Shown here: piece after piece, positions 54,688 to 59,599 of the stretch | Position numbering within the stretch: the first letter of the stretch is position 1 | Layout of the letters: every line of letters begins with the position of its first letter | Source of the DNA: Actinomycetes bacterium | GTDB taxonomy: Bacteria > Planctomycetota > Phycisphaerae > JAACET01 | DNA length: 64,000 nucleotides | NCBI GenBank assembly: GCA_030614915.1 | Contig: JAUXAG010000004.1 | Coordinates: forward strand, 1-64,000 | Reading direction: 5' to 3' | The notes under the pieces: generated by a model | What the model saw: the letters and a program-made list of their open reading frames with translations, nothing else | What the model was told of the DNA's origin: nothing | Databases searched by the model: none | Position numbers and translations under genes: made by a program

Positions 54688-56244
54688 TCAAGCTAAAGCT
54701 CGGTAAAGTACCTGCTGCATGGTAGTGAGGGGGGCGGGTTGGCCGGTCCAGAGCTCAAATTGCTTGGCGGCCTGGCGGATGAACATGTCAGCTCCGCTGA
54801 TGGTTGTGGCAGCGGCCTGGGCGGCTTGAGTGAGCAAAAGAGTCTGCTGAGGATTGTAGACGGTATCAAAGACGGTCATGTCGGGCTTCAGGGCATCGCG
54901 GGGAAATGGCGAAGCCTGAGTGTTCGGAGACATGCCGATGCTGGTAGCGTTGATGATGATTCGGGCAGTAGTTTTGGCCAGTTGGGCCAAGGGGACGGTG
55001 GTAGCGGTAAATTCTTCGGCCAGTCGCTGGGCTCTGGAGGCAGTACGATTGTAAATGAGGACCTGGGCGCCGGCCTGGGTGAGGCCTGCAACTATGGCCC
55101 GGGCGGCACCACCGGCACCAAGGACGGCAACCTTGCGTCCAGACAAGTCGGGGCGAGTGATGCCCATGCCAAGGGTAAGGGCATCAAGGGCGCCGTCGAG
55201 GTCGGTGTTGTAGCCGGATAATGGCGTCTCAAGTGAACTTACGATGGTATTGACAGATCCGATTCTTTCGGCAAGAGAGTCCACGTGAGCTGAATTGTCA
55301 CGAAGGTAACGCAGGGCGTTTTCCTTGTGGGGAATGGTGACACTCAAGCCGCGCAGATCGAGCCAGGGACGGCTAAGAAAGCCATCCATAAAGCGGGCGA
55401 AGTTTTCGTAGCCCGGCTCGACGAGGAAGGGCAGGTATAGGCCGGGGAAATCGGTCTGCTCAAAGGCGGCGTTGTGAATGGCCGGGCTTAGCGAATGAAC
55501 AATGGGTGAGCCGACGACACCAAAAAGGGAGGTTTGCGGAGTAATGCGTTCCCAGCGATATAGGCTGCGCATTTCGTCCAAGGGGATTTGGCCAGGGGCA
55601 CTGGCCTGGTCGAGGGAGAGGCAGGAGAAGGAAAGGAAGGTGCCGAGCTTGGCGGCCAGGACGCGGGAGATTTGGCCGGCCTGGCCCATGGCGATGATGA
55701 TGGTTGGCCTGGAAGACTGCTGGGCGAAGTCCAATAAGGGCAAATTGTCGTGAATCGATTGAGCCATGCAGACGACCTTGAGGATGGCGGCTGGTGCAGA
55801 GGACATCTGAGCGATAGACTCGTTGAGATTGGAAGGTACACAGTGAAAATCGTGGAGACTGAGGATAAGAGCGGGCTTGTCTGCGTCGAGGGAATCGCAA
55901 GTGATGGAGCTGATGAGTTCGCGGGCGCGTGAGGATGCAGCAAAGTGGGGCCATTCAAAGTCAATAAAGGCTGGACGGGCTTTGGCGATGTCGGCAAGGA
56001 GGTCCAGGCGCTGGTCCTCGGAGCCGGTGAATTTTCCGCCCTGGTCTCTGGGCCTGAGGGTGACGATTACGGGCAGGGAAGCTTCAGCCAGGAGAGTTGG
56101 CCAATCGGCATCGGCCATGTGGTCCAAGCGGAACTCAAGGATGTCGGCTCGGGCAGTGTGCGCAGACTTAATCTGCCGACGAGCTGAGGCGGTATCGCTC
56201 GCAGTGATGGGGACGGCCAATAATGTTCGCTTAGTCGGAGCCAC
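54688..56244 (-). CDS. aroDE: bifunctional 3-dehydroquinate dehydratase (type I)/shikimate dehydrogenase
   Basis: AroD part ADILEFRLDHMADADWPTLL...VIVTLRPRDQGGKF; AroE part GVVGSPIVHSLSPAIHNAAFEQT...LSVTIPHKENAL...VLGAGGAARAI...NATSIGMSP. Confidence 0.94.
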   Translation of the reverse strand: MAPTKRTLLAVPITASDTASARRQIKSAHTARADILEFRLDHMADADWPTLLAEASLPVIVTLRPRDQGGKFTGSEDQRLDLLADIAKARPAFIDFEWPHFAASSRARELISSITCDSLDADKPALILSLHDFHCVPSNLNESIAQMSSAPAAILKVVCMAQSIHDNLPLLDFAQQSSRPTIIIAMGQAGQISRVLAAKLGTFLSFSCLSLDQASAPGQIPLDEMRSLYRWERITPQTSLFGVVGSPIVHSLSPAIHNAAFEQTDFPGLYLPFLVEPGYENFARFMDGFLSRPWLDLRGLSVTIPHKENALRYLRDNSAHVDSLAERIGSVNTIVSSLETPLSGYNTDLDGALDALTLGMGITRPDLSGRKVAVLGAGGAARAIVAGLTQAGAQVLIYNRTASRAQRLAEEFTATTVPLAQLAKTTARIIINATSIGMSPNTQASPFPRDALKPDMTVFDTVYNPQQTLLLTQAAQAAATTISGADMFIRQAAKQFELWTGQPAPLTTMQQVLYRALA

Positions 56245-56420: not shown

Positions 56421-57965
56421 TCATAACCTGGCTGGTGGCGTAGTCCCGTTTCCATTGGCGGTGATGATGCGATTGATGGCCTGTAAGTATGCCAGGGCAG
56501 AGGCCTCGATGATGTCGGTGCTGAAGGCCCGGCCACGATACGAGGCGTCGTTGTAGCGCAGTTTTACGTAGACCTCGCCCTGTGCTTCCTTGCCACCGGT
56601 AATGGCCCGGATGGAATACTCGGCTAGCTTGGCAGTGATGCCAGTAATTCGACCGATGGCAGAATAAACGGCGTCGATGGGTCCATCACCGGTGCCGGCG
56701 TCCTGGAAGAGCTCGCCGGCAGGGTTGCGCAGACAGATGGTGGCGGTAGGAATCATCTTTGAGCCGGACGAAATCTGCAGCGACTCGAGCTTCCAGCCGG
56801 TGGCGACTGATTCGAGCAGGTCCTCAACCACGGCTTCAATGTCTTCGCGGAAGATCTCCTTTTTCTTGTCGGCCAGGCTCTTAAGGCTGGCCACAGCGGT
56901 GGTGAGCTGCTCCTCGGAGAGGGTATATCCGAGCTCGGCAACGCGCTGCTGAAAGGCGTGTCGGCCGGAATGCTTGCCGAGGACCAGGGCAGTTTTGGGC
57001 ACGCCGACGTCTTCTGGTCGCATGATCTCGTAGGTGCTGGCCTCGGCGAGTACGCCGTGCTGATGAATTCCGGCCTCGTGGGCAAAGGCGTTGGCGCCGA
57101 CGATGGCCTTGTTGCGCTGGACCTGCATTCCGGTGAGCGAAGAAACCATGCGCGAGGTTCTGTAAATCTGGCGAGTGTCAATGTTGGTGCGGATATCGTA
57201 GTGGTCGCGGCGGACCTTCAAGGCCATGACCAGCTCCTCGAGCGAACAATTTCCGGCCCTCTCGCCGAGGCCATTGATGGTGCATTCGACTTGGCCGGCT
57301 CCGGCGCGGACGGCGGCCAGAGAGTTGGCAACGGCCAAGCCAAGGTCGTTGTGGCAGTGGACGGAAATGACGGTCTGGGAGATATTGGGCACGTTGGCAA
57401 CCAAATCGGCGATTATTTCATAAAAATGCTCGGGCGTGGCGTAGCCGACGGTGTCGGGGATGTTGACGGTGGTGGCACCGGCCTCGATGACGGCCTGGAC
57501 GACCTCGCGGAGAAAGTCCGGCTGGGTGCGGGAGGCGTCTTCGGGGGAAAACTCGACGTCGTCAACCATGCTTTTGGCCAGGCGGACGGCGTCAACGGAG
57601 AGCTTTAGAATCTCCTGATGGGCCCGCTTGAGCTTGTACTTGAGGTGTATCTCGCTGGTGGCGCAGAAGACGTGGATGCGAGGATGGGCGGCATCGGCAA
57701 CGGCTTGGCCGGCGGTGGTAATGTCTTTCTCCAAGGAACGGGCCAGGCCGGCTACGGTGGCTTTTTTGATGACGGCGGCAACCTCCTTGACGGCCTGGAA
57801 ATCGCCGGCAGAACTCACGGGGAAACCGGCTTCGATGATGTCAACGCCCAGAGCTTCGAGCTGATGGGCAATCTCGACCTTCTGAGAGATGGTCAGCGAA
57901 GCGCCGGGCGATTGCTCGCCGTCGCGGAGAGTAGTGTCGAATATCTGGATTACGCGCGGTTCCAT
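56421..57965 (-). CDS. leuA: 2-isopropylmalate synthase
   Basis: IQIFDTTLRDGEQSPGASLTISQKVEIAHQLEALGVDIIEAGFPVSS; VHCHNDLGLAVANSLAAVRAGAGQVECTINGLGERAGN; HQHGVLAEASTYEIM. Start placed at ATG 57965 behind CCGGAGGAC, not at the track start 58166. Confidence 0.96.
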   Translation of the reverse strand: MEPRVIQIFDTTLRDGEQSPGASLTISQKVEIAHQLEALGVDIIEAGFPVSSAGDFQAVKEVAAVIKKATVAGLARSLEKDITTAGQAVADAAHPRIHVFCATSEIHLKYKLKRAHQEILKLSVDAVRLAKSMVDDVEFSPEDASRTQPDFLREVVQAVIEAGATTVNIPDTVGYATPEHFYEIIADLVANVPNISQTVISVHCHNDLGLAVANSLAAVRAGAGQVECTINGLGERAGNCSLEELVMALKVRRDHYDIRTNIDTRQIYRTSRMVSSLTGMQVQRNKAIVGANAFAHEAGIHQHGVLAEASTYEIMRPEDVGVPKTALVLGKHSGRHAFQQRVAELGYTLSEEQLTTAVASLKSLADKKKEIFREDIEAVVEDLLESVATGWKLESLQISSGSKMIPTATICLRNPAGELFQDAGTGDGPIDAVYSAIGRITGITAKLAEYSIRAITGGKEAQGEVYVKLRYNDASYRGRAFSTDIIEASALAYLQAINRIITANGNGTTPPARL

Positions 57966-58074: not shown

Positions 58075-58103
58075 AAAAAAGCCCCACGCAGCAAGCGTAG
58101 GGC
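58075..58103 (-). terminator. intrinsic terminator (attenuator) upstream of leuA
   Basis: RNA GCCCUACGC-UUGCU-GCGUGGGGC-UUUUUU: 9-bp stem with one G.U, U6 tail. Confidence 0.88.
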
Positions 58104-58158
58104 CTGAAATTTCGCAGCGAGGTCAGTCGCCGAAGCCCTACGCCTGGTGGGCGCATAG
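58081..58158 (-). promoter_or_regulatory. leu attenuator: protector CUAUGC/GCGUAG, antiterminator GCGUAGGGC/GCCCUACGC, terminator GCCCUACGC/GCGUGGGGC
   Basis: Segment 1 58153-58158, segment 2 58135-58143, segment 3 58095-58103, segment 4 58081-58089; 2:3 is a perfect 9-bp complement and 3:4 is exclusive with it. Confidence 0.85.
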
Positions 58159-58221
58159 CAAGCCAAGCAACAGCTCCAGGCTGTTGAGTCGAGCGAAACA
58201 ATATGGCTTGGGGCAGGACAT
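58138..58221 (-). CDS. leu operon leader peptide, 27 aa, 7 Leu codons
   Basis: ATG TCC TGC CCC AAG CCA TAT TGT TTC GCT CGA CTC AAC AGC CTG GAG CTG TTG CTT GGC TTG CTA TGC GCC CAC CAG GCG TAG = MSCPKPYCFARLNSLELLLGLLCAHQA; GGAG 9 nt upstream. Confidence 0.82.
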   Translation of the reverse strand: MSCPKPYCFARLNSLELLLGLLCAHQA

Positions 58222-58258
58222 CAGATCAGACTCCGCTAGACTATAGACTACATCGGCT

Positions 58259-58288
58259 ATTATAGGGCCTGGGGTTGAGGGGAGTCAA
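58259..58288 (-). promoter_or_regulatory. leuA leader promoter
   Basis: TTGACT N18 TATAAT on minus strand. Confidence 0.75.
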
Positions 58289-58411: not shown

Positions 58412-59599
58412 TCAAAATTCAATGGTGGCTAGGGATGCGGTCTGGTATCGGCGGAGCTTGATGGGGTGGATGGCTAGGCCCAGGCCGGGGCCGGTGGGCC
58501 TTCTGATGCGTCCGCCGTAGCCAAAACGGCAGGGGCGGGTGGAGATGTCATCGGAGAGCAAAAAGGTTCCATAAGAACCCTCGGCGAATTTGACCTTGGG
58601 GACCATGCTCAAAAACCAACGACCGGCGACGGAAAGAATGGCGGTCTCGCCGACCATACAGCCCAACTGATAGGCGATGCCGGCCTTGCGGGCCAGATGA
58701 GCCAGGCGGAGGGCAGGAACGAGTCCGCCGTTCTTGCTGATGCGGATATTGAAGTAATCGACGCTACGCTGATCAATGAGGGCCTGGGCTTGAGAGGGCA
58801 GGACGAGCGACTCGTCCACCATGATGGGCATGGCCAATTGAGCGTGCAATAGGGCGAAGTCGGCCTGGGCCTGGGGCGAGAGTGGCTGCTCGACGCAACA
58901 CACGCCGTATCTGGCCAGGGTGGGGATTGTCTGGAGGGCGGTGTCCAGATCCCAGGCACCGTTGATGTCGGCGCGGAGGGTATAACGGCCGCTGCGCAGG
59001 CCTCGGGCAAGTTGGCGATGGGTGGTCTTGAGGATGTCGCGGTCATTATCCTGGCCAAGTTTGATTTTGAAGTCGCGCAGGCCGAATAGACGCATCTTCC
59101 AAAGTTTGCGAGTGATTTGGCGGGGGTGATCGGCGGAAAGAATGCCCGAGAAGCGCAGCGACTCGAGGGAGCCGCCGGTGGTAAATCCGGGCAGGCCCAG
59201 CCAGCCGGCAATCTCCTGGAGGCCGCGGCGGAAATGCCGGCCGAAGGAGTCGAGCAGAGCTAACTCCACGGCACAGCGAGCGGCAACGATAGGACGAGAG
59301 TGCGGATCGGTAAGGGGCAAGTCATCCAGGGAATTCAAGAGGTCGGCAAAACTGGACGGGGCCAAGTTGGCCAGGCGGGGAACGAAGACAGTTTCGATGG
59401 CCTTGGCGGCAGAGTCGAGGGTCTCGCCGGAAACATAGGTTCGAGCTATGGCCTCGCCGTAGCCGGTGGTGCCGTCGGAAAGGACGGCGATGACAATGAG
59501 ATTCTCAGAGACGTCCCGCTGGGCTGCGGCATGGCGAAAGGGAGAGCGAAAGGGTATACTAAGAGTAAGGACTTCCAAAGATACCAAGCGTGCAGGCAT
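58412..59599 (-). CDS. enolase-superfamily enzyme (muconate cycloisomerase/dipeptide epimerase-like)
   Basis: GYGEAIARTYVSGET; DFKIKLGQDNDRDIL; LRADINGAWDLDTAL; VCCVEQPL; IMVDESLVL; FNIRISKNGGL. Confidence 0.85.
   Translation of the reverse strand: MPARLVSLEVLTLSIPFRSPFRHAAAQRDVSENLIVIAVLSDGTTGYGEAIARTYVSGETLDSAAKAIETVFVPRLANLAPSSFADLLNSLDDLPLTDPHSRPIVAARCAVELALLDSFGRHFRRGLQEIAGWLGLPGFTTGGSLESLRFSGILSADHPRQITRKLWKMRLFGLRDFKIKLGQDNDRDILKTTHRQLARGLRSGRYTLRADINGAWDLDTALQTIPTLARYGVCCVEQPLSPQAQADFALLHAQLAMPIMVDESLVLPSQAQALIDQRSVDYFNIRISKNGGLVPALRLAHLARKAGIAYQLGCMVGETAILSVAGRWFLSMVPKVKFAEGSYGTFLLSDDISTRPCRFGYGGRIRRPTGPGLGLAIHPIKLRRYQTASLATIEF

Follow-up and report, generated by a model that had tools for sequence, protein, structure and literature searches.

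The leucine attenuator of enteric bacteria (leuL-leuABCD of E. coli and Salmonella) places a leader peptide with a run of leucines, a competing antiterminator and a U-tailed terminator before leuA. Leader-peptide attenuation has been described mainly in Proteobacteria, Actinobacteria and some Firmicutes (PMC1262725, PMC2965389, PMC5794164). In Staphylococcus aureus, a Leu-responsive attenuator of ilvD, backed by reporter and suppressor mutants, has a Leu-rich leader with a terminator ~52 nt past the leader stop (PMC5794164). In Actinobacteria, the LEU element has a Leu-run leader and no typical terminator; its pseudoknot extends to the leuA Shine-Dalgarno box, and the element was proposed to control ribosome access to leuA (PMC1262725), while LeuL1 of Streptomyces lividans is a leaderless Leu-run ORF before leuA (PMC8079986). 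Leader genes of Planctomycetes were treated only as distance to the next gene (PMC4833913). We found no earlier description of planctomycete attenuation in the open-access literature searched, in agreement with the sequence-only reading of this DNA, which knew of none in the lineage; cases could be listed in the comparative survey of Lopatovskaya et al. (2010).

Here we report on a window of 64,000 nucleotides, the whole stretch of DNA analysed, from an uncultured member of Planctomycetota, most likely of the Phycisphaerae. The closest named LeuA is that of Phycisphaerae bacterium SM23_33 (64% identity). The region upstream of leuA very probably holds a ribosome-mediated, leucine-responsive transcription attenuator, made up of the following features:

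58259..58288, minus strand: sigma-70-type promoter TTGACT-18-TATAAT, 11 of 12 consensus matches, downstream of the two terminators of the preceding gene
58288-58283 and 58264-58259, minus strand: its -35 box TTGACT and -10 box TATAAT by direct reading, spacer 18 nt
58138..58221, minus strand: leader ORF MSCPKPYCFARLNSLELLLGLLCAHQA, 27 aa, ATG at 58221, UAG stop at 58138
58188, 58179, 58173, 58170, 58167, 58161 and 58158, minus strand: leucine codons of the leader
58150..58155, minus strand: segment 1, UGCGCC, within the leader, 5' side of the 1:2 hairpin by fold
58135..58144, minus strand: segment 2, GGCGUAGGGC, including the leader UAG stop; nine-base pairing part GCGTAGGGC at 58143-58135
58095..58105, minus strand: segment 3, AGGCCCUACGC, 5' arm of the terminator, also pairing with segment 2; pairing part GCCCTACGC at 58103-58095
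58079..58089, minus strand: segment 4, GCGUGGGGCUU, 3' arm of the terminator
58105-58079, minus strand: terminator hairpin, 11 pairs, loop of 5, then T's
58075..58080, minus strand: U-run of the terminator, TTTTTT before CG, its first two bases common to the stem
56421..57965, minus strand: leuA, 2-isopropylmalate synthase, 514 aa, matching TIGR00973 and NF002086

The assignment of leuA is firm, with 720.9 bits for TIGR00973 (cut-off 598.7) and 782.6 bits for NF002086 (cut-off 532). The longest ORF call starts at TTG 58166 (581 aa) and runs through the terminator, as had been remarked from the ORF track. Numbered from the ATG at 57965, the protein is matched by the LeuA family models from residue 2-6 onward; that ATG lies 113 nt past the terminator stem, close to the ~110 nt first estimated. 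Direct reading of the minus strand likewise bore out the promoter, the U-tailed terminator and the Leu-rich leader, whose leucine codons are exactly those noted earlier: seven of its 27 residues are leucines, with the run LELLLGLL, and GGAG precedes its ATG. On the other side of leuA lie a 58-aa ORF overlapping the leuA end and an aroD-aroE fusion (54688-56244, minus strand; type I 3-dehydroquinate dehydratase fused to shikimate dehydrogenase), possibly part of the leuA operon, where the enteric operon has leuBCD.

The locus resembles the enteric attenuator in its Leu-run leader peptide and in the opposition of an antiterminator to a U-tailed terminator ahead of leuA; it differs from it in phylum and in having the UAG stop of the leader at the core of segment 2. 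With the S. aureus attenuator it shares a Leu-rich leader and a terminator behind the leader stop, but the latter governs an ilv-leu operon in another phylum, and the antiterminator proposed for it involves pairing with the U-tail (PMC5794164). The likeness to the LEU element and LeuL1 is the short Leu-run ORF upstream of leuA; whereas the LEU element is defined by a stem joining the Leu codons to the leuA Shine-Dalgarno box and by the lack of a terminator, both a terminator and an antiterminator are present in the window. An Rfam scan of the window at gathering thresholds returned one tRNA only, with no match to a leader family, T-box or riboswitch, and relaxed thresholds gave sub-threshold matches to unrelated families, none of them a leader family.

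The pairing of segment 2 with segment 3 is a perfect 9 bp, as had been claimed, and this antiterminator is mutually exclusive with the 3:4 terminator hairpin (-20.3 kcal/mol in the predicted fold). The stretch 58146-58073, if free, is predicted to fold as 2:3 (-31.8 kcal/mol), which abolishes the terminator. A ribosome at the stop would cover segment 2 and leave only 58131-58073 free, and this shorter stretch is predicted to fold into the terminator. In these models the structure switches between 2:3 and 3:4 in the manner of the textbook geometry proposed from the letters. The codon placement agrees: a ribosome stalled on the Leu codons at 58173-58156 would leave segment 2 (58144-58135, spanning the UAG) free, while one at the stop would cover it, the footprint size used here being taken from general knowledge. 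The whole naked leader RNA is predicted to fold as 1:2 plus 3:4; since naked RNA from 58160 on has an alternative fold, 2:3 together with a 1:4 pairing (-41.5 kcal/mol), the untranslated default state is uncertain.

The protector stem was only partly as first drawn. A 1:2 hairpin does form in the window, but UGCGCC/GGCGUA with loop CACCA (-12.7 kcal/mol when its extension is counted) is a better pairing than the CUAUGC/GCGUAG proposed. It can form in the genus relatives as well; among terminator-bearing relatives it is not conserved, the local hairpin z-score at the leader stop averaging 0.02. The sequence comparison supports a protector only in the genus of the window and, as a stop-codon hairpin, in one other branch, not generally.

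From this arrangement we infer the course of events, from transcription start and leader translation to stalling, termination and the leucine response. RNA polymerase would start at the 58288-58259 promoter and a ribosome would follow through the leader ORF. When charged tRNA-Leu is scarce, the ribosome would stall at the Leu codons (58173-58156) and cover segment 1; segment 2, left free, would pair with segment 3, no terminator would form and leuA would be transcribed. When leucine is plentiful, the ribosome would reach the UAG and cover segment 2, and the 3:4 hairpin would end transcription 113 nt before leuA.

We compared the element with those of the relatives of the window genome, two in its genus and many in its class. 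L002 and L003, the two genus relatives, keep the leader, and 15 of the 16 leuA upstream regions examined first contain a Leu-run ORF. The comparison was then extended to 107 class genomes above the LeuA cut-off. Of 110 full-length leuA upstream regions from the class, 91 hold a Leu-run ORF, here defined by four or more leucines within nine residues, and 51 combine it with a strict terminator at most 120 nt from its stop. Their reverse strands gave 15 and 0, and dinucleotide shuffles of them 26.2 and 0.2, respectively. Among 79 upstream regions of ilvB, trpE, hisG, leuC and cimA of relatives, eight have a Leu-run ORF and none has it with a terminator; for nine shorter LeuA-like paralogues the figures are 1/9 and 0/9. 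The pair of leader and terminator exceeds chance: it is all but missing from the shuffles, from the reverse strands and from the regions before other genes. Named genomes with this arrangement come from Pirellulales, Gemmataceae, Isosphaeraceae (some with the leader only), Planctomycetales, Thermoguttaceae and Phycisphaerae; the Omnitrophota and Brocadiae records in the named-genome set yielded none. Thalassoglobus neptunius KOR42 (L084) is a cultured species that carries the element. Examples are the leaders MYTTIINNSLLLSLLLRGRS (L087) and MTRAILLLNLGLLLSPPRGGRS (L098), each followed by a ACCCTGAGGC-type terminator and a T-run. Outside Planctomycetota, a MAG labelled Vicinamibacteria (L073) shows the arrangement too, a Leu-run leader before leuA with the UAGG/CCC antiterminator core found in the planctomycetes, which could be a binning error or a wider spread.

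We also examined whether segments 2 and 3 change together. In 81 leader-terminator cases, duplexes were computed between the leader-stop region and the terminator 5' arm, with 10,000 permutations among species. Duplexes with the own arm average -14.9 kcal/mol against -11.2 for swapped arms (3.7 better; z = -13.6), and the control, a stretch lying 50 nt upstream, is indifferent to swapping (-6.8 own, -7.0 swapped). For compensatory change, 57 sequences were anchored on each side independently of pairing, on the UAG stop and on the CCC in the arm. Across them the UAGG(G) core and the CCC are nearly fixed, and at positions -1 to -4 of the stop 181 of 228 cells are paired, against 110 +/- 6.8 after swapping and a maximum of 133 in 2000 swaps. 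The compensatory pairs include GC, CG, TA and AT, and the sequences place this change in the last codons of a peptide that otherwise varies freely. Such swap tests assume that related sequences are exchangeable; using one genome per species reduces the effect of kinship, without removing it. The 2:3 pairing is co-evolving across class and phylum. The question raised by the sequence-only reading, whether relatives keep a Leu-rich leader and the stems, is answered in the affirmative class-wide and phylum-wide for leader, terminator and 2:3 pairing. In the recurring design, segment 2 is built around the leader stop (UAG, then GG), and a ribosome completing the leader would thereby cover the antiterminator directly.

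A regulator acting on translation, in which leader and structure gate ribosome access to leuA and termination plays no part, has a precedent in the actinobacterial leuA with its terminator-less Leu-run leader and pseudoknot to the Shine-Dalgarno box (PMC1262725), and one planctomycete branch is also without a terminator. In the window, however, a strong U-tailed terminator with a mutually exclusive antiterminator stands 113 nt before leuA, and the pairings stop at 58079, ~90 nt upstream of the leuA Shine-Dalgarno box, which is unpaired with the element; we regard this explanation as highly improbable. It is likewise highly improbable that the leader is translated with an outcome independent of leucine supply, the terminator just lowering basal expression. 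Mutation of the Leu codons of the Streptomyces coelicolor leuA leader gave no classical attenuation behaviour (reported in PMC1262725), but here very divergent leaders keep their Leu codons while other residues are not kept, and the position of these codons relative to segment 2 is kept too. That the hairpin is a mere 3' terminator of the gene that ends just before (58412-59599), the short ORF being accidental, is also highly improbable, however commonplace post-gene terminators are: the gene is already closed by two terminators (58368-58346 and 58336-58312), a near-consensus promoter intervenes before the leader, and leader and terminator recur before leuA phylum-wide with a co-evolving 2:3 pairing. 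The hairpin 58105-58079 was rejected as its terminator on the first two of these grounds. The gene itself is of the enolase superfamily and cycloisomerase- or epimerase-like; its terminators at 58368-58312 (minus strand) are near-identical tandem hairpins, AGCCCCCGG...CCGGGGGTT and AGCCCCCAGG...CCTGGGGGTT, with TCTTT after each. Attenuation of leuA transcription is the reading carried by the observed elements, their exclusive pairing, their conservation and their co-evolution.

The terminator-less branch (families f8, f13, f16, f20 and f22; members include L111, L117, L124, L128, L143, L195, L201 and L206) has leaders ending in LLLLRP, LLALLLRR and similar. Leader and terminator occur together in only 2 of its 40 regions, and a GCGCC/GGCGC hairpin, mostly at the leader stop, in 36 of 40 (0.2 expected from shuffles). 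In 30 of the 40, CATAAT lies at most 110 nt from the leuA match (1.9 expected), usually at a set distance behind TRGAAW, giving a promoter-like TRGAAW-N17-CATAAT close to leuA. Because the leader ATG lies 4-10 nt behind the -10 box in 27 of the 29 branch leaders with a recognisable box, these leaders are probably translated leaderless, which resembles the Streptomyces leaderless leader (PMC8079986). A C-over-G bias after the hairpin would suit Rho, but it is slight. Because this branch retains the leader but has no intrinsic terminator, the terminator must be dispensable in some cases. We tentatively suggest, as a possibility that falls short of being probable, that leuA attenuation on a UAGGG/CCCU core is ancestral in Planctomycetota and that this branch became terminator-less, with a mechanism not yet described. 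On that suggestion, the terminator-less form would consist of a leaderless Leu-run peptide, the GCGCC/GGCGC stop-codon hairpin and TRGAAW-N17-CATAAT before leuA.

Other biosynthetic genes were also surveyed. At ilvB, leuC and cimA of relatives we found no convincing leader with a terminator, and at trpE and hisG of the window genome none was found. Upstream of hisG in two members of the class, L284 (G014) and L285 (G005), the His-run leaders MNCAATHHHHAHAKHPRGSRTFV and MNRPTFHHHVHAKHPRGSRMCA are followed by a terminator AAACGCCGGC/GCCGGCGTTT; these are probable histidine attenuators. Upstream of trpE (L249, L251, L259, L260 and L261) there are short Trp-run ORFs (SRWLGAWPWQG, WVWW, FWWWRTW, GWWWRW), with terminators in two, which are probable tryptophan attenuators.

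A leucine attenuator is in itself of a known type; what appears to be new is its occurrence in Planctomycetota, where it is apparently undescribed in the open-access literature searched. The element also reveals short genes and regulatory RNAs that the annotation of planctomycete genomes misses. Furthermore, a co-evolving attenuator found phylum-wide implies a coupling of transcription to translation that is tight enough for attenuation in Planctomycetota. The internal membranes and the nucleoid of these bacteria have been the subject of past debate, which is why such coupling is of interest here, and the planctomycete element offers a direct test of it.
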